A stretch of 64,000 bases of DNA, from the NCBI GenBank assembly GCA_015146655.1, contig VKHL01000035.1, forward strand, positions 157,228 through 221,227, written 5' to 3'. The notes below the pieces were generated by a model. That model was not told the DNA's origin and ran no database searches. It saw only the letters and a list, made by a program, of their open reading frames with translations. The translations under genes were made by a program, and so were the position numbers. The first letter of the stretch is position 1. Each line of letters starts with the position of its first letter. The stretch is from Ochromonas danica. Taxonomy: Eukaryota > Sar > Chrysophyceae > Chromulinales > Chromulinaceae. Of this stretch, positions 19,795 to 44,111 are shown piece after piece.

Positions 19795-22700
19795 ATGGAA
19801 TTCCATCTGGTTGGTCTGTCAAATCCAAATGGAAATCCAATGATAACCTTATCCATGAACCAAACAATTCCTATCTATCCTCCATGCCAGGGAGATATTG
19901 ATGTACTCTATAGTATTTATAATGCAACCCATGGTGATCAATGGGAGTTTTTATATGGACAACCATGGAACTTCACGGAAACACATCCCAATCCATGCAA
20001 TGAGAATTGGCAAGGTATTTCTTGTGATGAAAGATGTACAGAAAGTGCTTGTTGGCAAGAAATTATTCATTTGGATATAGAATATATGAACTTGATAGGC
20101 ACTTTACCTTTAGAGATAGGCAACTTTTCTGCTTTGCGTGTATTAGTTATGGAAGACAATTTTGGACTCATTGGCACTATACCAGAGACGATAGGAAACA
20201 TTTCAACATTGAATACTTTAGCGTTTTCTGATCTTTCTATAAGTGGAACTATTCCAGATTCGATTGGTAATTTACAAAACTTGACTCAATTATCATTTAC
20301 TTATCTGTTTACTTTATCATCAACGATACCAGAAACACTTTTCTTCTTACCTAATCTTACAGAGTGGCTGTTTGATGGCTTTTATATACATGGAAGTCTC
20401 TCCTCTTCTATCGGCAATTTAACCAAGTTGCAATCTCTTGGATTGTATGGTTTATATTTAACCGGAACACTACCAGAAGAACTAGCCAATATTCCATCCC
20501 TGCAAAATGTATTAATTATTAGTAATCAATTCTCTGGCTCAATACCTTCTCAACTGATTTGCCAGAACAAGGAGTTGATCAAGCTTCAACTGTCTAATAA
20601 TTATTTTACTGGGAGTATTCCCATAACTTCTGAATGTGTTGGTGAAATTTTGGAGAATTTGCAATTCGACGGGAATCTTCTCTCTGGGACTATTCCACCT
20701 GAACTATACTATTTTTCTAATTTAAATTTCCTCAATTTAGGGCATAACACCCTGTCAGGGACTCTTTCAACAAGTATTGGAAACCTCACCCAGTTGCAAC
20801 GTTTTTATATAAATAATAATTACCTGAATGGCACCTTACCAACCAACTTCACCTCTTTATATCTTATAAATACCTTGAGCATGGGCTATAACTATTTTAC
20901 TGGAAGTTTGCCTGAGGAACTTACTCACATTCCTTCTATGCAAATGTTGATTGTGAGCTCGTGCTTCTTCACGGGTGTGATACCAGCTGGATTCGGTTCA
21001 AACGAGAATTTTGACTATTTGGATGTGAGTTATAATTTGTTAGAAGGAAGTATTCCTGAAGATTTATACTTTGGGGAATTGCTCACGGGTCTGCTGGTGT
21101 TCAACAATTTCCTCACAGGGACTGTTTCTCATAATATAGGCCATGCAACAGCTATGGCCTTTCTCGATATGAGCAATAACCTACTTTATGGTACCGTTCC
21201 TTCTGAGGTTGCTAACTTACATGGGTTGCTTAATCTTGGTTTGGGGTGGAATGCCTTTGTTGGCGAATTCAATGTGGACTTGTCTCAAATGCTCTCACTT
21301 GGCACGCTGCAACTTGAACATTGTCTTTTTACTGGAGAAGTTTCTCTGAATGCGCAGCAGAACCCGATACTACAATATATAAACATCAGCACGAATTACT
21401 TTATAGGCAATGTGACAACCCTGTCTTATGCCTACTATGCCTTCGTTATCGATATTTCTTCAAATCTTCTCTCTGGTTCACTTCCAAGCATAGCCAAAAT
21501 GTCCAGTATCACTATCTTTTTCGCTCAATCCAATCTTCTTGAGGGATCCATAACTCATTTCTTTGGTAAAACGGTGAATTCGCTCTTAACAAATGTGGAT
21601 ATTAGTGACAATCTCTTCACAGGCCCATTGCCAAGTCAATTTTTATTAGGATACAAGATATCTCTGGCTTCATTTGCTGCGGTTCAAAATTGTTTTACAG
21701 GTACAATGCCAGAGAGCTTTTGTAATCTCACATCGTTAGAGGTCTTAGCTTTGGATGGCCTGTCCACTGCCAAGTCATGTCGCAATCCCACTTTGTCGGA
21801 TGTATTACCTCAAATTCATTCCTATGCTTTAAATAGCCAAGCTATTCATGGTGGCATTCCAAAGTGCTTGTTTGCAATGCCCTATTTAGAGACATTACAT
21901 CTCGCCGGTAATCGTTTGACTGGTAGTATTCCTGTGGAAGAGGAGAGTGATTTAGGCAGGTTTTTAAGTGATATCTCTTTATCACACAATGAACTAACTG
22001 GCACTCTTCCTCCACCATTGCAAGGAGGTAATCGTTGGAGTCGTTTAGATGTGAGTTACAACAAGATTAAAGGAGAGTTAAAAACGGATGATAGCGGAAA
22101 CAGTAATACGGAAGGATTTCTTCCAAATGCTTTTATTTACTTAAATATCAATAGGTTTTCGGGACGTATCCCTGGGTTCTATTATGATATGACAGGGGGA
22201 AGTGGAAATGATTCTTCTGGAGGAGAGTTAGATATGTTGAGAGGCAATCTGTTTGCTTGTCCTGAACAGAGTCTGAAAAGTGATGTTCCTGAGGCTGATC
22301 CTTATCATTTACAATATGGATGTGGTTCTGATAATTTGAATGAAGCGCTTATGGCCTGGGTATGCCTTGTCTTCTGCACTTTCGTAGCGATTTATTTAGG
22401 ACTTGTTTGGATGAGACGGCAGATTAAACAAACGACAATGACAGGGAAAGCTGAAGTGACAGACAATGATGACGCAAATAGTACATCACAATCAAATTTA
22501 GGATTGTCTTCAGAATCAACTCATAAAAGTAGATGTTGGAAGGCATTAGAACAAAGCTTTGTAATATCCGAGCTTTTACAATGGGAACGAGCCATGTCTC
22601 AATGGTATTCACCAACGAAAGAGAGTCTTGACACTCATTCTACCGACTATAACCTGAAAGAATGGAAAGACGGTCTTGTTGTTTTGTTTGTTGGTGACGT

Positions 22701-24633
22701 TGTTGATGAGGACCTGAAGGATGATATCTTTTGGAAACAAATCTATGAAGCTGGATTGTTCATGAATAAGACACGACGTTTTGTGCTGTGGCTAGGGATT
22801 TATATCATTTGTGTGGGATGTCCCATCTATGGTTGCCTGACATACTTCTGTGGCTCCTATGATAATGAATATGCATGGACTATATCTGCTGCCTATCTCT
22901 CAGGTGTGAGTGCTTCAGCAGTGTTATTGATCTTCTTTTTCTTTTTGTTCCTGCTATCTATTGTTCCTCTACACAAGTTAACGTCTGGCAGTGATGAAAG
23001 GAGGGATAAAGAAGAAGAAGTTGGGTTGAGGTTAGACGATGAGAAAGTACAATCACCACAGCAAGAAGAATATAAAAGGGATGATGATAATAGTGAAATA
23101 GACAAAGTTAAGGAAGCATTTAGTCCTTTACACAGGCCAGATGAAGATCCGTTAACAGAAAGCTCTCAATCAACAATACTTTCAAAGTTAGAAACTGGAA
23201 TTCCCCCCTCAACAAGTAATGGAACCAGTGACAGCTCTTCTTTTTATTCAGATTGTCTCCCTCTTACTACATCCGCCATACCCACCCAACAATTGAGCGA
23301 AGAAGAGTTGATGAAGAGGAAGAAGTTAGATTGGAGAGTGATCCTGCTAATGAAGACAGCTGTTGCTGTTTTCAATATCTCCATTGTGTTGTTGGTTAAT
23401 GGATCTTATGTCTATGTCTATCTTCAAGTTCAAAGATGGAGTGCAATGATGCTGTCTGTAGCGTTATCAGTCTTTAAAGTATTCTGGAGTATGGTTGTTC
23501 AATTTGCTGTTGTACACTATCTACAACCTTTACAACATCTCTCTTCTAAAACAGGATTAGATGAGAGTAATGTTCATTTTATGAGTAGTCTGATGTTATT
23601 CAATACGATAGTGGCACCTTGTCTTGCTACTCTGGTTGCTAGCTCTGATTGCTTCTATTATGTTTTTGCATCTCCTGCTGAGATCTCTGCTTCATATACT
23701 TTCGAACAATGTACTCGGTTTGATAATGTTGGTTGTATGTTGGAAGCGCCAACAACTCGTTCAATTGACTTTGCTCCACCATTCAGCTATTCTTTTCAAT
23801 GTAGTTCCGCCATGTTGGTTGATTATGCTTATGTATTTGCTTATAAGTATGTATTGATTGGAGTACTTTATCCTTTGTTGGTAGTTGTAGTTGTTCTTTA
23901 TGGAGATAGTAGGACGGAGAGGAAAGAGGAAAGTGGACGACGAAAGGCAGTGTCGGAAACATGGGTTGAAGTCTATTTGTTACCTCCTTTATGGAGAAGA
24001 GAAGATGAAGAGAATTCAGATATGAATGTAGTTTTCTCTTCTGGAGACTATATTATTCGTTTGTCTATGATGATAGGATGTTTACTGACTTATGGTTCTG
24101 TTTTACCTTATCTTTCTTTCTTGATCTGCTTCAGTATCTTGAGCAATACGGTGTTAACTCAGATTGGATGGTTGCGTTCCATTGAATACCATGCCATTTT
24201 CACTTTTCTGAGAAGAGAAACCATGACACGATATGATAACCATGACAACACTAACAACAGTGATAATAGTCATAGTAGTAATAATGAAATGAAGAATGAT
24301 GACTGTAGTGAGGAAAAGGAAGTCAAAGGTCAAAAGATGAAAGATAAGATGAAAGAGAAAGTGGTTGAATTGGGTAAACAGTGTAGTAGGCTACGGCATG
24401 GCATGAAAGAAGCATCTGGACCTTTGTTAATCTTGTTGCCTCTATTCTATGCTTGCTATCTCTTTGACGTTGCAGGAGATGCCGCGGGAGCTTGGATGGC
24501 ATTATACTTCACAGTGATTTTCTGGAGTGCCTGTATTTTGACATCATTGGTCGTGGCACGATCAGAGATATCAATGTATATGAGGCATGTGTGGAAATTG
24601 TTGAGTAGTGGATGGTCTAAACGACAAGCATGA
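19795..24633 (+). CDS. LRR ectodomain / multi-span membrane receptor-like protein (LRR1)
   Basis: One open frame of 1,612 residues. Residues about 30-80 are an N-terminal LRR cap (DVLYSIYNATHGDQWEF ... NPCNENWQGISC). About 95-830 carry plant-type LRRs of roughly 24 residues with LxGxIP/LxGxLP phasing and many N-glycosylation sites. Then a juxtamembrane segment (MLRGNLFACPEQ ... YGCGSDNLNE) and a first membrane span near 850-875. After an acidic loop come about nine more hydrophobic spans between about 990 and 1590, with conserved FNTIVAPCLATLVASSDCFY and PPFSYSFQCSSAMLV. No kinase, TIR or death domain. It is clearly homologous to the next three LRR genes over its whole length but much diverged. 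No signal peptide at this ATG; a candidate exon lies upstream. The C-terminus looks shortened relative to a duplicated tail at 30.8 kb. Confidence 0.88.
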   Translation: MEFHLVGLSNPNGNPMITLSMNQTIPIYPPCQGDIDVLYSIYNATHGDQWEFLYGQPWNFTETHPNPCNENWQGISCDERCTESACWQEIIHLDIEYMNLIGTLPLEIGNFSALRVLVMEDNFGLIGTIPETIGNISTLNTLAFSDLSISGTIPDSIGNLQNLTQLSFTYLFTLSSTIPETLFFLPNLTEWLFDGFYIHGSLSSSIGNLTKLQSLGLYGLYLTGTLPEELANIPSLQNVLIISNQFSGSIPSQLICQNKELIKLQLSNNYFTGSIPITSECVGEILENLQFDGNLLSGTIPPELYYFSNLNFLNLGHNTLSGTLSTSIGNLTQLQRFYINNNYLNGTLPTNFTSLYLINTLSMGYNYFTGSLPEELTHIPSMQMLIVSSCFFTGVIPAGFGSNENFDYLDVSYNLLEGSIPEDLYFGELLTGLLVFNNFLTGTVSHNIGHATAMAFLDMSNNLLYGTVPSEVANLHGLLNLGLGWNAFVGEFNVDLSQMLSLGTLQLEHCLFTGEVSLNAQQNPILQYINISTNYFIGNVTTLSYAYYAFVIDISSNLLSGSLPSIAKMSSITIFFAQSNLLEGSITHFFGKTVNSLLTNVDISDNLFTGPLPSQFLLGYKISLASFAAVQNCFTGTMPESFCNLTSLEVLALDGLSTAKSCRNPTLSDVLPQIHSYALNSQAIHGGIPKCLFAMPYLETLHLAGNRLTGSIPVEEESDLGRFLSDISLSHNELTGTLPPPLQGGNRWSRLDVSYNKIKGELKTDDSGNSNTEGFLPNAFIYLNINRFSGRIPGFYYDMTGGSGNDSSGGELDMLRGNLFACPEQSLKSDVPEADPYHLQYGCGSDNLNEALMAWVCLVFCTFVAIYLGLVWMRRQIKQTTMTGKAEVTDNDDANSTSQSNLGLSSESTHKSRCWKALEQSFVISELLQWERAMSQWYSPTKESLDTHSTDYNLKEWKDGLVVLFVGDVVDEDLKDDIFWKQIYEAGLFMNKTRRFVLWLGIYIICVGCPIYGCLTYFCGSYDNEYAWTISAAYLSGVSASAVLLIFFFFLFLLSIVPLHKLTSGSDERRDKEEEVGLRLDDEKVQSPQQEEYKRDDDNSEIDKVKEAFSPLHRPDEDPLTESSQSTILSKLETGIPPSTSNGTSDSSSFYSDCLPLTTSAIPTQQLSEEELMKRKKLDWRVILLMKTAVAVFNISIVLLVNGSYVYVYLQVQRWSAMMLSVALSVFKVFWSMVVQFAVVHYLQPLQHLSSKTGLDESNVHFMSSLMLFNTIVAPCLATLVASSDCFYYVFASPAEISASYTFEQCTRFDNVGCMLEAPTTRSIDFAPPFSYSFQCSSAMLVDYAYVFAYKYVLIGVLYPLLVVVVVLYGDSRTERKEESGRRKAVSETWVEVYLLPPLWRREDEENSDMNVVFSSGDYIIRLSMMIGCLLTYGSVLPYLSFLICFSILSNTVLTQIGWLRSIEYHAIFTFLRRETMTRYDNHDNTNNSDNSHSSNNEMKNDDCSEEKEVKGQKMKDKMKEKVVELGKQCSRLRHGMKEASGPLLILLPLFYACYLFDVAGDAAGAWMALYFTVIFWSACILTSLVVARSEISMYMRHVWKLLSSGWSKRQA

Positions 24634-25196
24634 ACAAGTGAGAAAGACGACAATTGTTCAAACGAGCACTGATGTTGATAAGAAGACAATAGTGGAGATG
24701 GTGGAGGAGAAGACAGTGGTATGAAGCAAAAGGCTTCTAACCTCAACTGCAGTGATCTATGAGATACTTTATGATGATCATATATTTTTTGTAAATACAC
24801 GACGGACGTCTATGTAGACTATGAAAATAATTTCCAGCACGCTACCCTGTTTTGCAATACCTATCTATATGAAATAGCTCGATATTGTATACGTATTGTA
24901 TTTAGTGCTAATAAGGTGCAAACAACCTCTCTATCCTTAATTGCTAGGTTTTGTTGTTTAGTTGGTTATTAATGATTGTATAAAACAGCTAATGAGCTCC
25001 AAGCTGACCAAACATTAGTTAAGTTTTAGTGACTTTAGCATCTAAACAAGCCTGAATTTTGGCACTAATCGCTTCACGATTGGCTTTAATCCATCGAATA
25101 CGCTGCAGATAATTCTCAGCACGACTTGTAATGCTGGTGATACTGTCTTATTGGGCGATGGCACGACCCACAAAATAGACCACATTCGACAAGATA
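24556..25196. repeat. Segmental duplication, copy A
   Basis: About 640 bp, from the last codons of LRR1 through its 3' flank into the APH-like fragment, is nearly identical to about 30808-31432. Differences include a 2-bp indel near 24630 and scattered substitutions. It ends abruptly near 25196. Confidence 0.9.
25022..25196 (-). pseudogene. 3' fragment of an APH/homoserine-kinase-like gene
   Basis: This matches the 3' end of the intact gene at 31252-32286, covering about its last 55 codons. A substitution turns the GAA codon after the AQ pair into TAA, an in-frame stop at about 25148. Upstream of about 25196 the similarity to the intact gene is lost. The fragment cannot encode the kinase and is best read as duplication debris. 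Confidence 0.85.
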
Positions 25197-25473
25197 TGAA
25201 CAGCCATTTTCCATTTTCGCTGATCCACAATGACTTCCTTTGAAAATTGCCTAATCGCCATCAAACAAGACTTAAACTAACGATCATTAACTTCAGTCAT
25301 TTGTTTTAACAAGCGCTTTGAGTCTGAGTTCGTCTTGTTTTCAAAAAGAAAGAGACTTTGATAAATCTCGATGTTTTGTCTTCCGAAAGACCAACACTAC
25401 AGGGTTGAATCTGCTCTGGGGTTGAATCTGTCATGTCATACGATGATAGAGTGATCAGCAGAATTGGAGAAGG

Positions 25474-28400
25474 ATGAGGCGACAACGACAAATCAGGTTT
25501 TCTAGACACCTTCTGGGAAGATTTCTTCTCGTCTTCTTCCTTTCTTGTTCCCTTCATTTCGTTCATTCATGGGGAAATCTCATCAGTCACCCAAATCCTT
25601 TGCGCCACAAAAATTCACGCCTTCTTTCCTCTGACCAGCTAAAAGAGCAAGAAATCCTCCTCACTGTCACAGGAAATCAGAGCAATCCTGCTCCTCTCCC
25701 AGCAGATGAGTTGGGGGCCTTGCATGACCTCTATAATGCAACTATTGGTGAGTATTGGATCTGGACGGGAGTTCCATGGAATTTCACGGAATCGAATCCT
25801 GACCCTTGCAGTGAGGGTTGGGAAGGAGTCACTTGCTTTATAGTGTGTGATAACAACAGCAATTGTGAAGAGCATGTCAACAGTATTATTCTATCGAACA
25901 ACAACATGAGTGGAAGTTTGCCTGACTCTCTGCAACAGCTGCAACAACTGCGTTATTTGTCCATCTCAAGTAATTTTAAGCTCACGGGATCTATCCCATC
26001 TTCCTTGTCAAACCTCTCTTATTTATCTTCTTTGATCTTGGGAAGCAATGGTTTAAGTGGTTCTATTCCCAGCAGTCTCACAAACGTCAAATCCTTGGTC
26101 TTCTTGGATTTATCTGAGAATGATCTGACAGGCATCTTGCCAACGAACCTCTCCCAACTGACAGGGCTGAGCTATTTCTATATATATTCGAATCATCTCT
26201 CTGGCTCGATGCCAGGTGATATTGGCGCCTGGTCTCAGTTATCCTATTTGTACGCTTATTCGAACTTGATTTCGGGTGAATTTCCAGAGAGTATTGCCAA
26301 TTGCTCACTTCTGAACACCTTTACTGTTTACAATAACTTTATGACTGGTCATCTGCCGCCATCAGTTAGCAAGCTTAAGTCTTTGACCTTTTTAGATGCT
26401 TCATATAACATGCTCAGTGGACCGATACCTGATGATGTGGGTACAGCATCAGCTATGCTTTGTATGAGCTTGGAAACGAACTTCTTCACGGGTACTCTTC
26501 CGTCTTCGATTGGCCAATTGAGCGCATTAACATACTTCAGTGTATTTGACAATATACTATGGGGATCGCTTCCCTCCACAATCTACGATCTATCCAGCAT
26601 CACAGAAGTTTTGCTCTCCTCAAATACTTTTTCGGGCAGTTTGAGTAGTGCGATAGGTCAATGGACTGCAATGACTTATCTGGATCTGAGCTCTAACATA
26701 TTTACAGGCAATCTTCCTGGTGCGCTTGGTCAGTTGGAGAAGTTGGAGTTCTTTAGTGTAAGCTCGAATGTGTTATCTGGGACTCTTCCAGCAGAACTGG
26801 GGAACTGGAAGATGTTGGAGGAGCTATACTTGAGCGTGAATTTGTTCGAAGGTACAATTCCTGCTTTTATCGGGAACATGAGTGCATTGAGCTATTTATA
26901 TTGGGAAACCTGCTTACTGACAGGTGCATTACCTTCTGAAATAGCTTCCCTGGAGAATTTACTTGTGTTGAATGTCATTAGCAACTTTCTATCAGGAACA
27001 ATACCTGAGTTTATGACCAATATATCCACCTTAGTTGCACTGGCTCTCGGCAATAACCACTTCTATGGTAGTCTTCCAGCGCACTTCGGAAGATTGACGA
27101 AGCTGCAATATTTAACGATCGCTTACAATGGCTTCAGTGGGAGTCTTCCTGCTTCTTTCTCCACACTAAGTAATCTCCAAGCTGCTTCTCTGGCTTGTAA
27201 CTTCTTGTCAGGCTCTTTATCTTCCCTTTCCATCCCGTCAAGCCATCTTGACTATTTGAACATCTCTAATAACTACTTCACTGGAGAGACATCGCCACTG
27301 CTATCTTTACAGAATATCTCGATCCTGGACATTTCCTCGAATGGATTGACGGGATCGTTTCAAGTGCATGAGAAAATGCCTAAGCTGGTTTGGTTGTTCT
27401 TACGCGGAAATGAGTTATCAGGTTCCTTGTCAGGGACTTTCACTTCTCTTTCCACTCCTTCTTTGGTTTATTTGGACCTGTCGAACAATCGCTTCAGCGG
27501 TGCATTTCCAGCCTCCGACTTCGCACAATTGACCAAACTGAACACACTGGCAGCAGTAGAAAATTGCTTCACAGGAACGATTTCATCCGACCTTTGCAAA
27601 GCCAGTAAGTTGCAAGTGGCAGCATTGGATGGTCTATCGGCTGCTCCGAGTTGTCGCAGGGCAACGCTCTCTTCGTCTGATGGTACGCTTTCATCTTGGG
27701 TGCCTTCCTACGTCATGGGGAAACATGCAGTTCATGGCAGTTTGCCTTCGTGCTTATTCCAGGAGTTGAATGTGTTAGTTACCCTGCACTTGTCCGGGAA
27801 TAGTTTGAAAGGCACGATTCCTGACTTGGCTAAGCATAGTTTGCTTTCTGATCTCTCCCTATCTCACAACGAACTATCGGGAACAGTGCCTGATTCTGTG
27901 CAGAGCAACTCGTGGATCAACCTTGATCTGAGTTTCAACAAGCTCACAGGCATATTGAAGAACAGTATGTCATCCACTGATTGGGCCAATGCTTCGATCG
28001 CTCTGGACATCAATCGTCTTTCTGGCAAGATCCCTAGTGATTACTATCATATAGGGGATGTGGATATGCTGAGAGGCAATATCTTCCAATGTCCGGACGA
28101 TGGCAATGATGAAGAGAGTCTGCCTCCCAGTGATCCTTATAACAACCAATATGGCTGTGGTTCGGTGACGTTGAACACGGCTCTGATAATCTGGGGATCG
28201 GTAGTAGTATGTTTGGGAGTGGTGTGTGTTTGCATTGCAGGGTCGATGAAGATGCGCAGTAGTAGACAACGTGAGGATGTTAAGAGTAAGTATAGCAAGG
28301 ACATTGCGTGTTGTGGGAAGAGGAAGCAAAATGAGGAGAAAGAAGTATCAGAGGATGTGGGAGAAGGCGAGGACTTGGAGAAGAGAGGTGAGGGAGCGAC

Positions 28401-30630: not shown

Positions 30631-30807
30631 GAAGCATCAAGCATGCTTCCCCTCCAAGGACGTCAGTCTTCTACCTTAACGGACCATTAAGGAATATTGA
30701 TTTATAACTTTACCGCTCAACCTGTATCGCAGGCCGAATCTATAATTGGGCATGGGGTAGTCATTCTCCTCGGGAGCAAGCAATGGTATCTGCTCGGAGT
30801 TCGGATT

Positions 30808-30957
30808 TATATGAAGTATGTGTGGAATTTGCTGAGTAGTGGATGGTCTAAACGACAAGCAAATGAACAAGTGAGAAAGACGACAATGGTTCAAACGAGC
30901 ACTGATGTTGATAAGAAGACAATAGTGGAGATGGTGGAGGAGAAGACAGTGGTATGA
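30808..30957 (+). pseudogene. Detached 3' coding tail of an LRR1-type gene
   Basis: This matches the last coding bases of LRR1 (VW-LLSSGWSKRQA) but sits 180 bp after the LRR2 stop, without the rest of a gene. Here the frame continues past the point where LRR1 stops, adding a charged tail of 29 residues (from NEQVRKTTMVQTSTDV) before TGA. It is an orphan fragment and is unlikely to be translated as such. Confidence 0.8.
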
Positions 30958-32807: not shown

Positions 32808-35800
32808 ATGACGATCTGGCTTGCAAGATTTCTTCTCATCTTCTTCCTTTCTTGTTCCCTTCATCTCATCCATTCATGGGGAAATCTCACCAGTCACCCA
32901 AATCCTTTGCACCACCAGAATACACACCTTCTTCCCTCTGGCCAGCTAAAAGAGCAAGAAGTCCTCCTCACTGTGACAGGAAATCAGAGCAATCCTGCTC
33001 CTCTCCCAGCGGATGAGTTGGGGGCCTTACATGACCTCTACAGTACAACTCTCGGTGAGTATTGGAACTGGACGGGAGTTCCATGGAATTTCACGGAATC
33101 GAATCCTGACCCTTGCAGTGAGGGTTGGGAAGGAGTGATGTGCAATGCTGTGTGCCATAATTCTAGCAATACCATGGAGAGTTGTGAAGAGCATGTAGTT
33201 GCCATCTTTCTATCAAATAACAACATGAGTGGAAGTTTGCCCGACTCTTTGCAACAGCTGCAACAACTGCGTTATTTGTCCATCTCAAGTAATTTTAAGC
33301 TCACGGGGTCTATCCCATCTTCCTTGTCAAGCCTCTCATACTTGATTTATTTGGTCTTAGACAGCAATGGTTTAAGTGGTTCTATTCCCAGCAGTCTCAC
33401 AAACGTCAAATCCTTGGTCTTCTTGGATTTATCTGAGAATGATCTGACAGGCATCTTGCCAACGAACCTCTCCCAACTGACAGGGCTGAGCTATTTCTAT
33501 ATATATTCGAATCATCTCTCTGGCTCGATGCCAGGTGATATTGGCGCCTGGTCTCAGTTATCCTATTTGTACGCTTATTCGAACTTGATTTCGGGTGAAT
33601 TTCCAGAGAGTATTGCCAATTGCTCACTTCTGAACACCTTTACTGTTTACAATAACTTTATGACTGGTCATCTGCCGCCATCAGTTAGCAAGCTTAAGTC
33701 TTTGACCTTTTTAGATGCTTCATATAACATGCTCAGTGGACCGATACCTGATGATGTGGGTACAGCATCAGCTATGCTTTGTATGAGCTTGGAAACGAAC
33801 TTCTTCACGGGTACTCTTCCGTCTTCGATTGGCCAATTGAGCGCATTAACATACTTCAGTGTATTTGACAATATACTATGGGGATCGCTTCCCTCCACAA
33901 TCTACGATCTATCCAGTATCGTAGAAGTTTCGCTCTCGACGAATACTTTTTCAGGCAGTTTGAGTAGTGCGATAGGTCAATGGACTGCAATGGCTTATCT
34001 GGATATCAGCGAAAACTATTTTGCAGGCAGTCTTCCTGGTGCGCTTGGTCAGTTGGAGAAGTTGGAAGTTTTGAGTGGAAGCTTAAATGTCCTATCTGGG
34101 GCTCTTCCAGCAGAACTGGGGAATTGCAAGAGTATAGTGGAGGTGTATCTGAGTGGAAATTGGTTCGATGGCACTATTCCCGCTTCATTTGGCAATTTGA
34201 CTGTATTGAAGTATTTGTATTTGGACGATAGCTTTCTCACAGGTGTATTACCTTCGGAAATGGCTTCACTCCAGAATCTGAACATACTGGCTGTGGAAAA
34301 TAACATATTGTCAGGAACAATACCTGATTGTCTCTCCAATATATCTTCTTTACTTGTAATGGGACTAGGGATAAATAACTTTCATGGTAGTCTTCCTGCG
34401 CACTTCGGAAGATTGACGAAGTTGCAATATTTAACGGTCTCTTTCAGTGGCTTCAGTGGGAGTCTTCCTGCTTCTTTCTCCACACTAAGTAATCTCCAAG
34501 CTGCTTCTCTGGCTTGTAACTTCTTGTCAGGCTCTTTATCTTCCCTTTCCATCCCGTCAAGCCATCTTGACTATTTGAACATCTCTAATAACTACTTCAC
34601 TGGAGAGACATCGCCACTGCTATCTTTACAGAATATCTCGATCCTGGACATTTCCTCGAATGGATTGACGGGATCGTTTCAAGTGCATGAGAAAATGCCT
34701 AAGCTGGTTTGGTTGTTCTTACGCGGAAATGAGTTATCAGGTTCCTTGTCAGGGACTTTCACTTCTCTTTCCACTCCTTCTTTGGTTTATTTGGACCTGT
34801 CGAACAATCGCTTCAGCGGTGCATTTCCAGCCTCCGACTTCGCACAATTGACCAAACTGAACACACTGGCAGCAGTAGAAAATTGCTTCACAGGAACGAT
34901 TTCATCCGACCTTTGCAAAGCCAGTAAGTTGCAAGTGGCAGCATTGGATGGTCTATCGGCTGCTCCGAGTTGTCGCAGGGCAACGCTCTCTTCGTCTGAT
35001 GGTACGCTTTCATCTTGGGTGCCTTCCTACGTCATGGGGAAACATGCAGTTCATGGCAGTTTGCCTTCGTGCTTATTCCAGGAGTTGAATGTGTTAGTTA
35101 CCCTGCACTTGTCCGGGAATAGTTTGAAAGGCACGATTCCTGACTTGGCTAAGCATAGTTTGCTTTCTGATCTCTCCCTATCTCACAACGAACTATCGGG
35201 AACAGTGCCTGATTCTGTGCAGAGCAACTCGTGGATCAACCTTGATCTGAGTTTCAACAAGCTCACAGGCATATTGAAGAACAGTATGTCATCCACTGAT
35301 TGGGCCAATGCTTCGATCGCTCTGGACATCAATCGTCTTTCTGGCAAGATCCCTAGTGATTACTATCATATAGGGGATGTGGATATGCTGAGAGGCAATA
35401 TCTTCCAATGTCCGGACGATGGCAATGATGAAGAGAGTCTGCCTCCCAGTGATCCTTATAACAACCAATATGGCTGTGGTTCGGTGACGTTGAACACGGC
35501 TCTGATAATCTGGGGATCGGTAGTAGTATGTTTGGGAGTGGTGTGTGTTTGCATTGCAGGGTCGATGAAGATGCGCAGTAGTAGACAACGTGAGGATGTT
35601 AAGAGTAAGTATAGCAAGGACATTGCGTGTTGTGGGAAGAGGAAGCAAAATGAGGAGAAAGAAGTATCAGAGGATGTGGGAGAAGGCGAGGACTTGGAGA
35701 AGAGAGGTGAGGGAGCGACTTCAAAGGATGAAGAGAAAGGGAAATCATCAGCACAGTCAGCGACATGTTGGGATCGGTTCTTGGACAAGGTGGAGATGAT

Positions 35801-38090
35801 GAGGAAGCAGATGGAGGAGTGGCAGTCTGTCTATGGTGGCGAGAACGACGAGGTCAAAGACGCTCTTCGCAGACAAGACAACACGTATCGCGGAGAAGAT
35901 AGCGATGATGAGTATGATGAAGCTGACGCAGACGTTACGTTTCAAGAAGACTCGAATCGTGAAGATGATAGCGATGATGAATATTATGAAGCTGATATCA
36001 AGAGTTTAGAAGGCGCATATCTTAGAGAGTGCAGTCATGTAGACGAGACTCATGCCGATTCTCGTGTCCAAGCCGATAGGGAGCCTCACTCTATTAATAA
36101 TCCCGTAGCTGTCCTTCGAAGTCAAATCGTGATGGTGGGTCAGTTGTCACGATTTGTTCGACAGTTTAGTAGTGTAGCGATGTTGTTGATCGTATTGCTG
36201 GGCGTTCCTCTCTATACCACGCTATCTTATTTCTATGGTAGCTACTACTATCAATATGGATGGACGCCGTCAGCAGCATTTCTGTCAGGAGAATCTGCTG
36301 CGATAGCGTTGTTGATTCTGTTTCTTGGTATAGCAGCCAGTCTAGCTTTCTTTATCACATCTCGTGGTTTTTCTTCTTTCTATCACGCTGACGATCAACA
36401 GAATGGCCGCCACGTTTCTATAAAGTGGTGGTGGTATGGATGGTCTGTAGCTTGTGAGAGCAGCGAGAGTTGGCGCTATTTTCTTCGTGTGTTGGTGATC
36501 GTAGCGGGAAACACCGCAGTGGTGATGGTTGTAAATGCTGTATATGTCTATTTCTGCTTGCAAATATCTGTCTTGCAGTCATTCTTCCTGTCTGTGGCCA
36601 TGACAGGCTTCAAACTAGTGTGGTCTCGCATTTTGTTCTTGGTTCTTTCTCATTGGATTGCGCGAGTAGGCGAGCGAGGAATAACGAAAGAGGTATCTCA
36701 CCCTGGCCTCTCTTGTACTGACACAGTTGCTGTAACCAGTGGTGATGGAGTGAAGAATAATCTGGCCCGAACGACGAATCGATGGAATTCTGCAACTATT
36801 ACTATTTACAGCTGTTTGATGTTGTTCAATACAATCGTTGCACCTTGTTTAGCCACCTTGTTTATTAGTTCTGATTGTTTCTACTATGTCTTCGTATCTC
36901 CACCTTATGTCACCGTATCGTATTCATATCCGGTATGTATCACCATTGTTGAGAACGCATGTATGAGTACTGCCAGTGTTATCAAAACGTCAGATTTCCA
37001 GCCGCCCTTTAGCTATGGGTATCAATGCAGTTCTGCCTTGCTCCAAGAGTATGGCTATGTGTTCGTGTATAAGTATCTGTTGTTGGGAGTACTGCATCCA
37101 CTTGTCGTTCTGTTGTTGACCTTTTATCATGATCAGCAGATGTCCTCTGATGAGAGTGAGAATATTGATGGTGCTGAGAAGAAGGAGGAAGGATCTATGG
37201 CGGAAAGGGGAGTTGTTGTTAGCCGTGAGTTTATTTCTCCTCTGCACATTCGAAGTGGAGATGTTGCGATAGATGCGAATACTACATCTCCCAAGCCGAA
37301 CGCAATTAGATCTATCAGTTTGTCATCTACTACAAGTTTGTTGCTTCCTCCTCTTTGGAGGAAGAACATCTCACATGGGATAATGAGCTATTTTCTGGAC
37401 GAAACGAATTTCGAGCATGTTTTCTCTGCTGCAGAGTATTCTGTTCGTCTTTCGATGATGATAGGGACTCTTCTAACATATGGCATCGTGTTACCGTATT
37501 TGGCTGTTCTGGTTTGCGTGGCAATAGTGAGCAATACCTATCTGACACAATGGGCGTTGGCGAGGTTTTACCAAATGGCGTGGAAAGCAAGCGAGAACAA
37601 TCACCATGACCGTTTATCTTCGTCACTTCGCCTGCATTCCAATGACAGCAAGATGAGCGCTACTGTCCCTGAGTCGGAGTGGAATGCCGATGGCTCAAGG
37701 GAAGCCGTGAGACATGTGAAGGTGGTTTCTTTTTCGTCATCTTGCTCTTCTGTGAGGACCGACAATCAAGCCTTGGTCGTGCAGCACGTTAGCGATGAAT
37801 GTGAGCAACTGCCAGCAGCCTTGTTGGTGGCAGCACGACCTCTGTCTGTGTTAATGCTGTTCTTCTTGTCTTGTTTCCTGTTTGATATCGCTGGTGATAA
37901 AGGAGGTGCTTGGATTGGATTGTATTTCGTGTTGGTAATGTGTTTGGTGCCTTTGTTGGCAGTGATTGTGCATCGATTATGGCTGGGTTGGATGGAGAGG
38001 CGCAGACTGATGCATGAGGAGGTTGTGAGAAATCAAGCATCAAGAGAAGGTAGAAATGGTATAGAGCTGGTCAACGTGCCTGTTTCTTGA
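32808..38090 (+). CDS. LRR ectodomain / multi-span membrane receptor-like protein (LRR3)
   Basis: The first ATG is at 32808 (the in-frame codon at 32760 is GTG), giving 1,760 residues. It starts with a signal peptide (MTIWLARFLLIFFLSCSLHL). The architecture is that of LRR2: cap, plant-type LRRs, juxtamembrane CPDD...YGCGS motif, first membrane span, cytoplasmic loop, about nine further spans. It is nucleotide-identical to LRR2 over several blocks but differs in the central LRRs (roughly 33917-34450) and in the loop after the first span. In that loop it carries two related acidic units (GEDSDDEYDEAD and EDDSDDEYYEAD), absent from the other copies. Its C-terminus ends in a unique tail (RNGIELVNVPVS). 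Confidence 0.9.
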   Translation: MTIWLARFLLIFFLSCSLHLIHSWGNLTSHPNPLHHQNTHLLPSGQLKEQEVLLTVTGNQSNPAPLPADELGALHDLYSTTLGEYWNWTGVPWNFTESNPDPCSEGWEGVMCNAVCHNSSNTMESCEEHVVAIFLSNNNMSGSLPDSLQQLQQLRYLSISSNFKLTGSIPSSLSSLSYLIYLVLDSNGLSGSIPSSLTNVKSLVFLDLSENDLTGILPTNLSQLTGLSYFYIYSNHLSGSMPGDIGAWSQLSYLYAYSNLISGEFPESIANCSLLNTFTVYNNFMTGHLPPSVSKLKSLTFLDASYNMLSGPIPDDVGTASAMLCMSLETNFFTGTLPSSIGQLSALTYFSVFDNILWGSLPSTIYDLSSIVEVSLSTNTFSGSLSSAIGQWTAMAYLDISENYFAGSLPGALGQLEKLEVLSGSLNVLSGALPAELGNCKSIVEVYLSGNWFDGTIPASFGNLTVLKYLYLDDSFLTGVLPSEMASLQNLNILAVENNILSGTIPDCLSNISSLLVMGLGINNFHGSLPAHFGRLTKLQYLTVSFSGFSGSLPASFSTLSNLQAASLACNFLSGSLSSLSIPSSHLDYLNISNNYFTGETSPLLSLQNISILDISSNGLTGSFQVHEKMPKLVWLFLRGNELSGSLSGTFTSLSTPSLVYLDLSNNRFSGAFPASDFAQLTKLNTLAAVENCFTGTISSDLCKASKLQVAALDGLSAAPSCRRATLSSSDGTLSSWVPSYVMGKHAVHGSLPSCLFQELNVLVTLHLSGNSLKGTIPDLAKHSLLSDLSLSHNELSGTVPDSVQSNSWINLDLSFNKLTGILKNSMSSTDWANASIALDINRLSGKIPSDYYHIGDVDMLRGNIFQCPDDGNDEESLPPSDPYNNQYGCGSVTLNTALIIWGSVVVCLGVVCVCIAGSMKMRSSRQREDVKSKYSKDIACCGKRKQNEEKEVSEDVGEGEDLEKRGEGATSKDEEKGKSSAQSATCWDRFLDKVEMMRKQMEEWQSVYGGENDEVKDALRRQDNTYRGEDSDDEYDEADADVTFQEDSNREDDSDDEYYEADIKSLEGAYLRECSHVDETHADSRVQADREPHSINNPVAVLRSQIVMVGQLSRFVRQFSSVAMLLIVLLGVPLYTTLSYFYGSYYYQYGWTPSAAFLSGESAAIALLILFLGIAASLAFFITSRGFSSFYHADDQQNGRHVSIKWWWYGWSVACESSESWRYFLRVLVIVAGNTAVVMVVNAVYVYFCLQISVLQSFFLSVAMTGFKLVWSRILFLVLSHWIARVGERGITKEVSHPGLSCTDTVAVTSGDGVKNNLARTTNRWNSATITIYSCLMLFNTIVAPCLATLFISSDCFYYVFVSPPYVTVSYSYPVCITIVENACMSTASVIKTSDFQPPFSYGYQCSSALLQEYGYVFVYKYLLLGVLHPLVVLLLTFYHDQQMSSDESENIDGAEKKEEGSMAERGVVVSREFISPLHIRSGDVAIDANTTSPKPNAIRSISLSSTTSLLLPPLWRKNISHGIMSYFLDETNFEHVFSAAEYSVRLSMMIGTLLTYGIVLPYLAVLVCVAIVSNTYLTQWALARFYQMAWKASENNHHDRLSSSLRLHSNDSKMSATVPESEWNADGSREAVRHVKVVSFSSSCSSVRTDNQALVVQHVSDECEQLPAALLVAARPLSVLMLFFLSCFLFDIAGDKGGAWIGLYFVLVMCLVPLLAVIVHRLWLGWMERRRLMHEEVVRNQASREGRNGIELVNVPVS

Positions 38091-38981: not shown

Positions 38982-41900
38982 ATGACGATCTGGCTTGCAA
39001 GATTTCTTCTCATCTTCTTCCTTTCCTGTTCCCTTCATCTCATCCATTCATGGGGAAATCTCACCAGTCACCCAAATCCTTTGCACCACCAGAATACACA
39101 CCTTCTTCCCTCTGGCCAGCTAAAAGAGCAAGAAATCCTCCTCACTGTGACAGGAAATCAGAGCAATCCTGCTCCTCTCCCAGCGGATGAGTTGGGGGCC
39201 TTGCATGACCTCTATAATGCAACTATTGGTGAGTATTGGATCTGGACGGGAGTTCCATGGAATTTCACGGAATCGAATCCTGACCCTTGCAGTGAGGGTT
39301 GGGAAGGAGTCACTTGTAATACAGTATGTGATAATAGCAGCAATTGTGAAGAGCATGTGCACAGTATAATTCTGTCGCATAACAACATGAGTGGAAGTTT
39401 GCCCGACTCTCTGCAACAGCTGCAACAACTGCAAAAGCTGTCTATCACAGGAAACCATAAGCTCACGGGATCTATCCCATCTTCCTTGTCAAGCCTCTCA
39501 TACTTGATTTATTTGGTCTTAGACAGCAATGGTTTAAGTGGTTCTATTCCCAGCAGTCTCACAAACGTCAAATCCTTGGTCTTCTTGGATTTATCTGAGA
39601 ATGATCTGACAGGCATCTTGCCAACGAACCTCTCCCAACTGACAGGGCTGAGCTATTTCTATATATATTCGAATCATCTCTCTGGCTCGATGCCAGGTGA
39701 TATTGGCACCTGGTCTCAGTTATCCTATTTGTATGCCTATTCGAACTTGATTTCGGGTGAATTTCCAGAGAGTATTGCCAATTGCTCACTTCTGAACACC
39801 TTCTCTATTCACAATAACTTCATGACTGGTCATCTGCCGCCATCAGTTAGCAAGCTTAAGTCTTTGACCTATTTTGGCGTCTTCTATAACATGCTCAGTG
39901 GATCGATACCTGACGATGTGGGTACAGCATCAGCTATGCTTTTTATTAGCTTGGATACGAACTTCTTCACGGGTACTCTTCCGTCTTCGATTGGCCAATT
40001 GAGCGCATTAGCATACTTCAGTGTATATGACAATATACTATGGGGATCGCTTCCCTCCACAATCTACGATCTATCCAGCATCACAGATATTTCGCTCTCG
40101 TCGAATACTTTTTCAGGCAGTTTGAGTAGTGCGATAGGTCAATGGACTGCAATGACTTATCTGGATCTGAGCTCCAACATATTTACAGGTAGTCTTCCTG
40201 GTGCGCTTGGTCAGTTGGAGAAGTTGGAGTTCTTTAGTGTAAGCTCGAATGTGTTATCTGGGACTCTTCCAGCAGAATTAGAGAACTGGAAGAATATAGT
40301 GGAGCTATACTTGAGTGTGAATTTGTTCGAAGGTACAATTCCTGCTTTTATCGGGAACATGAGTGCATTGAGCTATTTATATTGGGAAAGCTGTTTACTC
40401 ACAGGTGCATTACCTTCTGAAATGATTTCCCTGGAGAAGTTGTATGTGTGGGACGCCATTAACAACTCTCTATCAGGAACAATACCTGAGTTTATGACAA
40501 CTATGTCCACGTTAGTTGCACTGGCTCTCGGCAATAACCACTTCTATGGTAGTCTTCCTGCAAACTTCGGAAGATTGGCTGAGTTGCAAGATTTAACGCT
40601 CGCTTACAATGGCTTCAGTGGAAGTCTTCCTGCTTCTTTCTCCACACTAAGTAATCTCCAAGCTGCTTCTCTGGCTTGTAACTTCTTGTCAGGCTCTTTA
40701 TCTTCCCTTTCCATCCCGTCAAGCCATCTTGACTATTTGAACATCTCTAATAACTACTTCACTGGAGAGACATCGCCACTGCTATCTTTACAGAATATCT
40801 CGATCCTGGACATTTCCTCGAATGGATTGACGGGATCGTTTCAAGTGCATGAGAAAATGCCTAAGCTGGTTTGGTTGTTCTTACGCGGAAATGAGTTATC
40901 AGGTTCCTTGTCAGGGACTTTCACTTCTCTTTCCACTCCTTCTTTGGTTTATTTGGACCTGTCGAACAATCGCTTCAGCGGTGCATTTCCAGCCTCCGAC
41001 TTCGCACAATTGACCAAACTGAACACACTGGCAGCAGTAGAAAATTGCTTCACAGGAACGATTTCATCCGACCTTTGCAAAGCCAGTAAGTTGCAAGTGG
41101 CAGCATTGGATGGTCTATCGGCTGCTCCGAGTTGTCGCAGGGCAACGCTCTCTTCGTCTGATGGTACGCTTTCATCTTGGGTGCCTTCCTACGTCATGGG
41201 GAAACATGCAGTTCATGGCAGTTTGCCTTCGTGCTTATTCCAGGAGTTGAATGTGTTAGTTACCCTGCACTTGTCCGGGAATAGTTTGAAAGGCACGATT
41301 CCTGACTTGGCTAAGCATAGTTTGCTTTCTGATCTCTCCCTATCTCACAACGAACTATCGGGAACAGTGCCTGATTCTGTGCAGAGCAACTCGTGGATCA
41401 ACCTTGATCTGAGTTTCAACAAGCTCACAGGCATATTGAAGAACAGTATGTCATCCACTGATTGGGCCAATGCTTCGATCGCTCTGGACATCAATCGTCT
41501 TTCTGGCAAGATCCCTAGTGATTACTATCATATAGGGGATGTGGATATGCTGAGAGGCAATATCTTCCAATGTCCGGACGATGGCAATGATGAAGAGAGT
41601 CTGCCTCCCAGTGATCCTTATAACAACCAATATGGCTGTGGTTCGGTGACGTTGAACACGGCTCTGATAATCTGGGGATCGGTAGTAGTATGTTTGGGAG
41701 TGGTGTGTGTTTGCATTGCAGGGTCGATGAAGATGCGCAGTAGTAGACAACGTGAGGATGTTAAGAGTAAGTATAGCAAGGACATTGCGTGTTGTGGGAA
41801 GAGGAAGCAAAATGAGGAGAAAGAAGTATCAGAGGATGTGGGAGAAGGCGAGGACTTGGAGAAGAGAGGTGAGGGAGCGACTTCAAAGGATGAAGAGAAA

Positions 41901-44111
41901 GGGAAATCATCAGCACAGTCAGCGACATGTTGGGATCGGTTCTTGGACAAGGTGGAGATGATGAGGAAGCAGATGGAGGAGTGGCAGTCTGTCTATGGTG
42001 GCGAGAACGACGAGGTCAAAGACGCTCTTCGCAGACAAGACAACACGTATCGCGGAGAAGGCAGTCATGTTGACGAGGCTCATGCCGATGCTGAAAGGGA
42101 GGCTCACCCTATTAATAATCCCGTAGCTGTCCTTCGAAGTCAAATCGTAATGGTGGGCCAGTTGTCACGATTTGTTCGACAGTTTAGTAGTGTAGCGATG
42201 TTGTTGATCGTATTGCTGGGCGTTCCTCTCTATACCACGCTATCTTATTTCTATGGTAGCTACTACTATCAATATGGATGGACGCCGTCAGCAGCATTTC
42301 TGTCAGGAGAATCTGCTGCGATAGCGTTGTTGATTCTGTTTCTTGGTATAGCAGCCAGTCTAGCTTTCTTTATCACATCTCGTGGTTTTTCTTCTTTCTA
42401 TCACGCTGACGATCAACAGAATGGCCGCCACGTTTCTATAAAGTGGTGGTGGTATGGATGGTCTGTAGCTTGTGAGAGCAGCGAGAGTTGGCGCTATTTT
42501 CTTCGTGTGTTGGTGATCGTAGCGGGAAACATCGCAGTGGTGATGGTAGTAAATGCTTCCTTTGTTTACCTCTATGTGCAAATATCTGTCTTGCAGTCAT
42601 TCTTCCTGTCTGTGGCCATGACAGGCTTCAAACTAGTGTGGTCTCGCATCCTGTTCTTGGTTCTTTCTCATTGGATTGCACGAGCACGCGGAAGAAAGCA
42701 AACGTCACGTCCAACTGAGGGTCCTAGTGACAATGCAACTAACACCATTGATGGAGTGAAGAATAATCTAACCCAAATGATGAATGGATGGAATTCTGCA
42801 ACTATTACTATTTACAGTTGTTTGATGTTGTTCAATACAATTGTTGCACCTTGTTTGGCCACACTGTTTATTAGTTCTGATTGTTTCTACTATGTCTTCG
42901 TATCTCCACCTTATGTCGCCGTATCGTATTCATATCTGGCATGTATCGCCATTATTAGGAACACTTGCGTGAGTGCTGCTGATGTTATCAAAACGTCAGA
43001 TTTCCAGCCGCCCTTTAGCTATGGGTATCAATGCAGTTCTGCCTTGCTCCAAGAGTATGGTTATGTGTTCGTGTATAAGTATCTGTTGTTGGGAGTACTG
43101 CATCCACTTGTGGTTCTGTTGTTGACCTTTTATCATGATCAGCAGACGTCCTCTGATGAGAGTGGGAATGGGAATGGGAATGGGAATGGGAATGATGATG
43201 GTGCTGAGAAGAAGGAGGAAGGACCTATGGCGGAAAGGGGAGTTGCTGTTAGCGATGAGCTTATTTCTCCTCTGCACATTCGAAGTGGAGATGTTGCGAT
43301 AGATGCGAAGAATGCATCTCCCAAGCCGAAAGTAATGACATCCAGTAAGGTTTCGTGCTTTGCTTTTCTGCTTCCTCCTCTTTGGAGGAAGAACATCTCA
43401 CATGGGATAATGAGCTATTTTCTGGACGAAACGAATTTCGAGCATGTTTTCTCTGCTGCAGAGTATTCTGTTCGTCTTTCGATGATGATAGGGACTCTTC
43501 TAACATATGGCATCGTGTTACCGTATTTGGCTGTTCTGGTTTGCGTGGCAATAGTGAGCAATACCTATCTGACACAATGGGCGTTGGCGAGGTTTTACCA
43601 AATGGCGTGGAAAGCAAGCGAGAACAATCACCATGACCGTTTATCTTCGTCACTTCGCCTGCATTCCAATGACAGCAAGATGAGCGCTACTGTCCCTGAG
43701 TCGGAGTGGAATGCCGATGGCTCAAGGGAAGCCGTGAGACATGTGAAGGTGGTTTCTTTTTCGTCATCTTGCTCTTCTGTGAGGACCGACAATCAAGCCT
43801 TGGTCGTGCAGCACGTTAGCGATGAATGTGAGCAACTGCCAGCAGCCTTGTTGGTGGCAGCACGACCTCTGTCTGTGTTAATGCTGTTCTTCTTGTCTTG
43901 TTTCCTGTTTGATATCGCTGGTGATAAAGGAGGTGCTTGGATTGGATTGTATTTCGTGTTGGTAATGTGTTTGGTGCCTTTGTTGGCAGTGATTGTGCAT
44001 CGATTATGGCTGGGTTGGATGGAGAGGCGCAGACTGATGCATGAGGAGGTTGTGAGAAATCAAGCATCAAGAGAAGGTACTTGTAGAGATTGTGCGGAGC
44101 CGGTGTCTTAA
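38982..44111 (+). CDS. LRR ectodomain / multi-span membrane receptor-like protein (LRR4)
   Basis: ATG 38982 (the in-frame codon at 38967 is TTG) gives 1,709 residues with the same signal peptide as LRR3 and the same architecture as LRR2. It is a mosaic. The signal peptide and early LRRs (SSLSYLIYLVLDSN) follow LRR3. The cap (ATIGEYWIW) and most central LRRs (SSNIFTG, FFSVSSN) follow LRR2, with private changes. About 1.4 kb from 40628 is identical to both. The span/loop region at 42530-43370 is private, including SFVYLYVQ and a loop starting RGRKQTSRPTEG. The final 700 bp are identical again. An expanded Gly-Asn repeat lies in a cytoplasmic loop, and the tail is unique (CRDCAEPVS). Confidence 0.9.
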   Translation: MTIWLARFLLIFFLSCSLHLIHSWGNLTSHPNPLHHQNTHLLPSGQLKEQEILLTVTGNQSNPAPLPADELGALHDLYNATIGEYWIWTGVPWNFTESNPDPCSEGWEGVTCNTVCDNSSNCEEHVHSIILSHNNMSGSLPDSLQQLQQLQKLSITGNHKLTGSIPSSLSSLSYLIYLVLDSNGLSGSIPSSLTNVKSLVFLDLSENDLTGILPTNLSQLTGLSYFYIYSNHLSGSMPGDIGTWSQLSYLYAYSNLISGEFPESIANCSLLNTFSIHNNFMTGHLPPSVSKLKSLTYFGVFYNMLSGSIPDDVGTASAMLFISLDTNFFTGTLPSSIGQLSALAYFSVYDNILWGSLPSTIYDLSSITDISLSSNTFSGSLSSAIGQWTAMTYLDLSSNIFTGSLPGALGQLEKLEFFSVSSNVLSGTLPAELENWKNIVELYLSVNLFEGTIPAFIGNMSALSYLYWESCLLTGALPSEMISLEKLYVWDAINNSLSGTIPEFMTTMSTLVALALGNNHFYGSLPANFGRLAELQDLTLAYNGFSGSLPASFSTLSNLQAASLACNFLSGSLSSLSIPSSHLDYLNISNNYFTGETSPLLSLQNISILDISSNGLTGSFQVHEKMPKLVWLFLRGNELSGSLSGTFTSLSTPSLVYLDLSNNRFSGAFPASDFAQLTKLNTLAAVENCFTGTISSDLCKASKLQVAALDGLSAAPSCRRATLSSSDGTLSSWVPSYVMGKHAVHGSLPSCLFQELNVLVTLHLSGNSLKGTIPDLAKHSLLSDLSLSHNELSGTVPDSVQSNSWINLDLSFNKLTGILKNSMSSTDWANASIALDINRLSGKIPSDYYHIGDVDMLRGNIFQCPDDGNDEESLPPSDPYNNQYGCGSVTLNTALIIWGSVVVCLGVVCVCIAGSMKMRSSRQREDVKSKYSKDIACCGKRKQNEEKEVSEDVGEGEDLEKRGEGATSKDEEKGKSSAQSATCWDRFLDKVEMMRKQMEEWQSVYGGENDEVKDALRRQDNTYRGEGSHVDEAHADAEREAHPINNPVAVLRSQIVMVGQLSRFVRQFSSVAMLLIVLLGVPLYTTLSYFYGSYYYQYGWTPSAAFLSGESAAIALLILFLGIAASLAFFITSRGFSSFYHADDQQNGRHVSIKWWWYGWSVACESSESWRYFLRVLVIVAGNIAVVMVVNASFVYLYVQISVLQSFFLSVAMTGFKLVWSRILFLVLSHWIARARGRKQTSRPTEGPSDNATNTIDGVKNNLTQMMNGWNSATITIYSCLMLFNTIVAPCLATLFISSDCFYYVFVSPPYVAVSYSYLACIAIIRNTCVSAADVIKTSDFQPPFSYGYQCSSALLQEYGYVFVYKYLLLGVLHPLVVLLLTFYHDQQTSSDESGNGNGNGNGNDDGAEKKEEGPMAERGVAVSDELISPLHIRSGDVAIDAKNASPKPKVMTSSKVSCFAFLLPPLWRKNISHGIMSYFLDETNFEHVFSAAEYSVRLSMMIGTLLTYGIVLPYLAVLVCVAIVSNTYLTQWALARFYQMAWKASENNHHDRLSSSLRLHSNDSKMSATVPESEWNADGSREAVRHVKVVSFSSSCSSVRTDNQALVVQHVSDECEQLPAALLVAARPLSVLMLFFLSCFLFDIAGDKGGAWIGLYFVLVMCLVPLLAVIVHRLWLGWMERRRLMHEEVVRNQASREGTCRDCAEPVS
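43164..43193 (+). repeat. GGGAAT hexanucleotide repeat within LRR4
   Basis: A run of five near-perfect GGGAAT units encodes alternating Gly and Asn in a cytoplasmic loop. LRR2 has a shorter version and LRR3 has lost it, so the tract length varies between paralogues. Confidence 0.85.

Follow-up and report, generated by a model that had tools for sequence, protein, structure and literature searches.

Plant LRR receptor kinases, among them GSO1, FLS2, PEPR1, RGFR1 and MIK2, carry a solenoid of 24-residue plant-type LRRs followed by one membrane span, as do the receptor-like proteins, and by a cytosolic kinase. An LRR-bearing ectodomain on a multi-span membrane part is found in LRR-GPCRs and in polycystin-1; the latter has 11 spans and a large ectodomain, with a big inner loop behind TM1 and a further outer domain that links TM6 to TM7. 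In the accessible part of one survey, non-oomycete stramenopile LRR-receptors are defined by a single transmembrane helix and are without attached functional domains (PMC2939053). For the diatom LRR-transmembrane proteins MRP2 and MRM2 of Pseudo-nitzschia, the accessible text mentions a transmembrane region and no polytopic module (PMC6261938). Brown-algal LRR-ROCO genes diversify their LRRs by exon shuffling and are a proposed immune repertoire (PMC11378527, in part), and Tetrahymena LRR genes combine exon-shuffling diversification with tandem duplication, most of them being without transmembrane domains (PMC6564038, in part); the available material of these two papers makes no mention of a comparable membrane module.

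The locus described here lies in a window of 64,000 nucleotides of Ochromonas danica DNA (the whole stretch analysed). It contains four uninterrupted long ORFs on the plus strand, each of which joins an LRR ectodomain to 10–11 hydrophobic spans (Table 1), whereas the plant receptors have a single one. The single-helix definition of stramenopile LRR-receptors, as worded in the accessible part of PMC2939053, would thus exclude this architecture. In the initial annotation the four genes were said to be consecutive. All four are present, but the array is interrupted between genes 2 and 3 by a minus-strand APH-family gene and by a gene-1-type 3′-end fragment. There was no evidence that the APH/choline-kinase-family gene is a member of the LRR system. 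No Rfam family at the gathering score and no tRNA (bacterial settings) was detected across the window.

Genes 2–4 begin with a hydrophobic, signal-peptide-like segment, followed by VHSWGN or IHSWGN; gene 1 as called has no such start. It is possible that the signal peptide of gene 1 is encoded by an upstream exon; the candidate, with an ATG at 19616 and a 56-nt intron, is one of 22 splice candidates and was picked on hydrophobicity alone.

Several other genes of the window were also inspected. The TerC-family gene at 18050–19551 (minus strand) appears, when read by eye, to be broken by short GT-AG introns, a feature suggestive of a eukaryote, and its signal-peptide-like N-terminus has an aromatic residue where cleavage probably takes place (VKAWKS). 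A neighbouring minus-strand ORF starting near 17411 has the similar sequence SHSWIS. Both starts resemble the ASAFAP-type presequence of complex red-lineage plastids and hint at an ochrophyte-like alga; the VHSWGN or IHSWGN of genes 2–4 is similar to them. The minus-strand segment 6037–7098 encodes a thioredoxin and two glutaredoxin stretches, and its internal repeats (6065–6297 and 6416–6648) share 82% DNA identity, which probably reflects duplication of the glutaredoxin domain. The minus-strand ORF 56167–57000, in which three stretches match FG-GAP_2 repeats (E 3.8e-33) and the N-terminus is hydrophobic, is possibly a second surface or secreted protein.

Table 1. Position of the array genes and of the features discussed in the text (window coordinates).
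Feature	Position	Strand	Remarks
Gene 1 (1612 aa)	19795..24633	+	LRR ectodomain and 10–11 spans; divergent member, 36% identity to the others
Gene 2 (1718 aa)	25474..30630	+	Hydrophobic N-terminal segment (likely signal peptide), LRR ectodomain, 10–11 spans
Gene 3 (1760 aa)	32808..38090	+	Near copy of gene 2; diverged LRR block; 53-bp internal repeat in first inner loop
Gene 4 (1709 aa)	38982..44111	+	Closely similar to genes 2 and 3, with some divergence within the membrane module
APH/choline-kinase-family gene	31252..32286	-	Intact; between genes 2 and 3
Membrane module, gene 1	22339..24630	+	TM1 to C-terminus
Membrane module, gene 2	28174..30627	+	
Membrane module, gene 3	35493..38087	+	
Membrane module, gene 4	41655..44108	+	
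Conserved core, gene 1	23578..23904	+	TM6, four-cysteine outer loop (SSDCFYYVF ... PPFSYxxQCSSA), TM7
Conserved core, gene 2	29353..29679	+	TM6, four-cysteine outer loop, TM7
LRR block, gene 2	26734..27165	+	Residues 421–564, where gene 3 differs most
Diverged LRR block, gene 3	34053..34484	+	
Corresponding LRR block, gene 4	40215..40646	+	Placed by constant 9-residue offset from gene 2
1,387-bp tract of gene 2	27142..28528	+	Shared unchanged with genes 3 and 4; covers LRR C-half, cap, TM1 and part of first inner loop
711-bp tract of gene 2	29915..30625	+	Shared unchanged with genes 3 and 4; runs from end of inner loop 7/8 over TM8–TM11 to near C-terminus
Duplicated block, first copy	24574..25200	.	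Gene 1 end, its 3′ flank, truncated 3′ end of APH gene; 98% identical to second copy
Duplicated block, second copy	30805..31433	.	Leads into intact APH gene; overlaps gene-1-type C-terminus fragment

LRR families of Pfam were found in all four proteins (LRR_1, E from 5.8e-19 to 2.9e-37) and no non-LRR Pfam family passed the curated cut-offs in any of them; in contrast to the plant receptor kinases, no kinase family was detected in Pfam at E up to 1. A simple parser counted 30 LRR units in gene 1 and 32 in each of genes 2–4, the first and last few being caps or breaks; judged from this output, the true number is probably about 29 per protein. The repeats are of the plant 24-residue type and the solenoid is similar in length to those of plant receptor kinases. 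With gene 1 as phmmer query, sequence matches included GSO1 (4.5e-97), PEPR1 (4.8e-93) and FLS2 (5.4e-80). The AlphaFold model of the gene 2 ectodomain (838 residues, four-sequence alignment) is a regular solenoid (mean pLDDT 74.7, pTM 0.64) with low confidence at residues 1–46, 670–691 and 787–838. Its nearest Foldseek match was GSO1 (2.1e-38, TM-score 0.61), followed by FLS2, RGFR1, PEPR1 and MIK2, and the TM-scores over the query ranged from 0.54 to 0.61 among the best ten matches. Plant LRR receptor kinases are therefore the best matches in sequence and in fold; giant-virus LRR proteins share the LRR fold only, the best of them, from Catovirus, giving a weaker Foldseek match (8.9e-21). Pfam, phmmer, the parser and the model with its Foldseek matches agree with the plant-type LRR ectodomain recognized in the initial annotation. 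The solenoid contains a cysteine-bearing break near its C-terminal end. The YGCGS motif provides the last conserved cysteine ahead of span 1 and is probably part of the cap that closes the LRR at its C-terminal end rather than of the membrane module.

By a Kyte-Doolittle scan, every one of the four proteins has 10 predicted spans after its LRR; the N-terminal segments and a weak segment within the LRR of gene 1 are left out of this count. A second scan covered genes 1 and 2; it used provisional scale values and an ad hoc weighting, its cut-off was lenient, and it gave 11 spans in gene 1 and 10 in gene 2. The roughly ten spans noticed previously were thus recovered by both scans, neither of which gave one or two, and the first span follows YGCGS in all four proteins, as described. 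Whether 10 or 11 spans are counted turns on a segment of ~44 residues, read either as a single span or as a hairpin. Eleven spans with the C-terminus inside would fit charge and conservation better than 10, and the spans and loops below are drawn on that assumption; this topology is a consistency argument, not an independent test. In the 11-span layout, the predicted inside loops and C-tail of gene 1 contain 59 K/R per 404 residues, compared with 2 K/R per 91 residues in outside loops 2/3, 6/7 and 10/11 (the 3-residue TM4-5 turn was left out). The AlphaFold2 model of the gene 1 membrane module was unusable as a fold (pLDDT 34.7, pTM 0.23).

No credible family match was obtained for the membrane module in Pfam, NCBIfam, PHROGs or PDB sequences, and none to any channel or transporter family by sequence profiles. 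Within these four collections the C-terminal domain therefore belongs to no named family, as had been suspected, and it matched no well-described family in the profile searches. Weak candidates were rejected. In Pfam (E up to 10), every match to the module either missed the curated cut-off or had an E-value of 0.1 or worse. DUF4834 (0.0012) and MgtE (0.012) were below the curated cut-offs and were each found in one of the four members; Trp_oprn_chp was found in three, at 0.84 or worse, and Cons_hypoth95 (0.28) was found for the TM6-TM7 core in two. HtpX in NCBIfam (0.16 in one of the four) and an unnamed PHROGs family (0.3 in two) were not credible matches. The PDB profile matches DppC (0.61) and CENP-K (7.5) were rejected at E 0.6 or worse, and the TM6-TM7 core had no PDB match up to E 10.

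Profile searches with the membrane module gave 104, 119 and 14 pattern stretches in viral contigs, none confirmed by tblastn, and 110 stretches in genome contigs, none confirmed; the ectodomain gave 288 pattern stretches in viral contigs, likewise without confirmation. No relative of the membrane module was found in the viral contigs. Translated DNA-pattern stretches (4 and 9) were judged to be chance (best tblastn E 0.13), as was one further stretch. By tblastn, the gene 1 module had no match in phages at E up to 1, and the 110-residue gene 1 core had one match in plasmids, at E 4, judged to be chance. The genome collections searched hold prokaryotes, plasmids and viruses, and these negatives say little about eukaryotes; other algae and protists may well have the membrane module too. 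Similar C-terminal motifs may occur in other algal or protist predicted proteins, a possibility that was not used as evidence. No description of an LRR ectodomain on 10–11 spans was found in the open-licence literature, including the accessible parts of PMC3268121, PMC12716839 and PMC12223298.

Pairwise identity is 93.7% between genes 2 and 3, 92.1% between genes 2 and 4 and 90.2% between genes 3 and 4, and 36–37% between gene 1 and each of them. Divergence among genes 2–4 is patchy. Codons 601–960 of gene 2 are identical in the three genes; in codons 421–540, gene 3 is 72–74% identical to gene 2 and 69–74% to gene 4, compared with 88–94% for genes 2 vs 4. In codons 1201–1500, which belong to the membrane module, genes 2 and 3 are 95–100% identical, and gene 4 diverges from both by 4–24% per 60-codon window. 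Three-way identical runs of 1,387, 711 and 373 bp were observed among 396 variable sites, compared with a longest run of at most 161 bp in 2,000 draws under uniform placement (assumed 5,073 columns). In a permutation test, the observed longest shared run was reached in 0 of 2,000 for each of the three pairs. The 1,387-bp tract adjoins the LRR block in which gene 3 is 69–74% identical to genes 2 and 4. Such long identical runs are what gene conversion or unequal exchange, or else an error in the assembly, would leave behind.

The end of gene 1 lies in a duplicated block (Table 1), and a gene-1-type C-terminal fragment of 21 codons (71%) is present at 30799–30861. From this block and this fragment, it is probable that at least one more copy of the gene-1 type once stood in the array and was lost or rearranged. 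The truncated 3′ end of the APH gene downstream of gene 1 lies at about 25020–25200 (minus strand). The 53-bp imperfect tandem repeat of gene 3 (35874–35995, 83%) lies in an acidic insertion that genes 2 and 4 lack.

Over 19 LRRs of genes 2–4, amino-acid-variable positions were 44 of 95 at the exposed strand, 26 of 190 at consensus positions and 30 of 171 at the others. The enrichment at the exposed strand (44/95 compared with 56/361 for all other positions, Fisher p 1.3e-9) would fit variation of a binding face. It was weaker in the seven most diverged LRRs (exposed 21/35 vs 45/133, p 0.006), where the comparison of exposed positions with other non-consensus positions (21/35 vs 27/63) was not significant (p 0.14). 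These tests treat sites as independent, an assumption that exchanged tracts violate. Pairwise dN/dS among genes 2–4 was 0.46–0.60 at exposed LRR positions and 0.17–0.60 across the LRR position classes, below 1 in each; positive selection is therefore not demonstrated. dS was also raised at exposed LRR codons. The only larger region with dN clearly above dS was outside the LRR, in inner loop 7/8 of genes 3 vs 4 (0.136 vs 0.096).

Since genes 2–4 are 90–94% identical, the informative test of conservation is gene 1 against the others (36%). The SSDCFYYVF and PPFSYxxQCSSA signatures, listed as conserved in the initial annotation, are indeed present in all four proteins, but their sharing among genes 2–4 reflects duplication. 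Between genes 1 and 2, identity was 50 of 91 aligned residues (55%) in the predicted outside loops and 64 of 300 (21%) inside. The outer loops 10/11, 2/3 and 6/7 have 6/8, 13/20 and 31/63 identical residues respectively, and the four cysteines of loop 6/7 are conserved. TM6 (16/21, 76%), TM8 (15/21, 71%), TM9 (14/21, 67%) and TM7 (14/25, 56%) are the most conserved spans; TM4 and TM10 are 41–45% identical, and TM1, TM2, TM3, TM5 and TM11 29–36%. Polar residues are well kept in TM4 (6/8), TM7 (5/6) and TM9 (4/4), and poorly in TM1 (3/7), TM2 (2/8) and TM5 (2/6). The part of the LRR nearest the membrane is 52% identical, compared with 32% for the N-half. For the whole of genes 1 and 2, dN was 0.72 and dS 2.77, and for TM6-loop-TM7 0.40 and 2.48, both dS values being near or beyond saturation. 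Most inner loops are among the least conserved parts (13–19% identity), with the exception of inner loop 7/8 (17 of 40 residues kept). As the predicted inside loops are mostly unconserved, no conserved cytosolic enzyme is visible. The earlier suggestion of a receptor class with its own transduction module was not substantiated, most inner loops, the expected site of transduction, being so poorly kept.

Taken together, we tentatively favour, at somewhat under an even chance, a polytopic cell-surface LRR receptor that signals through its membrane module and has a partly diversified ligand face. The ligand would be bound on the concave face of the LRR solenoid, and the signal would pass via the conserved membrane-proximal part of the LRR to outer loop TM2-3 and the four-cysteine outer loop TM6-7. 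The conserved spans TM6–TM9, together with the outer loops, would act as effector. A membrane effector is preferred to a cytosolic one because the membrane-proximal LRR, the outer loops and TM6–TM9 are kept and most inner loops are not. It would most likely be a ligand-controlled channel or transporter, because no cytosolic region is conserved enough to resemble an enzyme; no selectivity or transport signature was identified in the membrane module. Exchange among the tandem copies would keep long stretches uniform while the LRR-face block differs. The differing LRR block and some membrane stretches of gene 4 would be as expected for the recognition of changing partners (pathogens, self/non-self, mating cues). 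The differences of gene 4, up to 24% in membrane-module windows, and the 17/40 conservation of inner loop 7/8 argue against a uniform base.

The main rival is an adhesion or mating-recognition protein, in which the LRR face would attach to the cell wall or to a partner cell, with the membrane part serving mainly as an ungated anchor or scaffold. The large, partly diversified ectodomain and the lack of conservation of most inner loops are compatible with this function, and the kinase-less MRP2 and MRM2 of diatoms were proposed, in the accessible part of their description, to be pheromone receptors or adhesion molecules (PMC6261938). However, a mere anchor is unlikely to keep TM6–TM9 (56–76%) and the outer loops (55%) when overall identity is 36%, and we consider a passive anchor rather unlikely.

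It is improbable that the array encodes G-protein-coupled or other cytosol-signalling receptors, with a seven-helix core within the 10–11 spans and signalling via the inner loops. LRR ectodomains do occur on GPCRs (PMC12716839, in its accessible part), the proteins are multi-span, and inner loop 7/8 is moderately conserved (17/40). However, Pfam gave no GPCR family for the module up to E 10 (weak matches are dropped by the HMMER filters), and the inner loops together keep 64 of 300 residues, whereas one would expect conservation of a coupling surface.

It could also be that fewer genes or alleles exist and that the assembly has for the most part created the tandem copies and their identical tracts, as the long tracts are at 100% identity. 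This is slightly more improbable still: the upstream flanks of the copies differ (25–40% identity over 100 bp when compared without gaps, although genes 3 and 4 share 9 of the last 10 bases), the copies carry diverged blocks, and gene 1 is clearly distinct. Finally, an 11-span receptor-channel of the polycystin-1 kind, with the layout given above, is the least probable of these readings: the predicted span count and sidedness are similar, with the LRR outside, a large inner loop 1-2 and a conserved outer loop 6-7, but no GPS/GAIN, PLAT or polycystin-channel family was found in Pfam, no polycystin chain was among the PDB profile matches up to E 10, and the predicted TM10-11 linker of 8 residues (80–92 for TM9-10) seems too short for pore helices.

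To return to the polytopic receptor, it has in common with LRR-GPCRs and polycystin-1 an LRR-bearing ectodomain on a multi-span membrane part, but its module did not match their membrane domains in sequence, and the Pfam searches listed neither GPS nor PLAT nor channel domains. The diatom and brown-algal LRR-transmembrane proteins (MRP2/MRM2, and the LRR-receptors in the accessible part of PMC2939053) are alike in having an LRR ectodomain, in being membrane-bound and in lacking a kinase, and the array proteins are possibly related to them by lineage. With the brown-algal LRR-ROCO and Tetrahymena genes, as described in the available material, the array shares the diversification of LRR units, but these genes shuffle LRR exons, whereas the array ORFs are uninterrupted and exchange would take place between tandem copies. 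That the array represents an undescribed algal class of variable receptors, in which a plant-immune-like LRR sensor is set on an unclassified 11-span effector, kinase-free and membrane-transducing, with copies exchanging sequence in such a way that part of the sensor diversifies and much of the effector is kept uniform, is on present evidence unlikely.

Some surveys of LRR receptors start from the kinase domain (PMC3268121, in its accessible part) and others from a single span (PMC2939053, in its accessible part); neither would count the array proteins, which points to an annotation gap. The array looks like a genuine receptor architecture that is probably under-described; its membrane module is unclassified and its tandem copies form a mosaic. 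For algae outside the land plants it is largely open by what means microbes, partners or ligands are perceived at the surface, and a plant-like sensor coupled to a membrane-embedded effector, if true, would be a new answer to this question.
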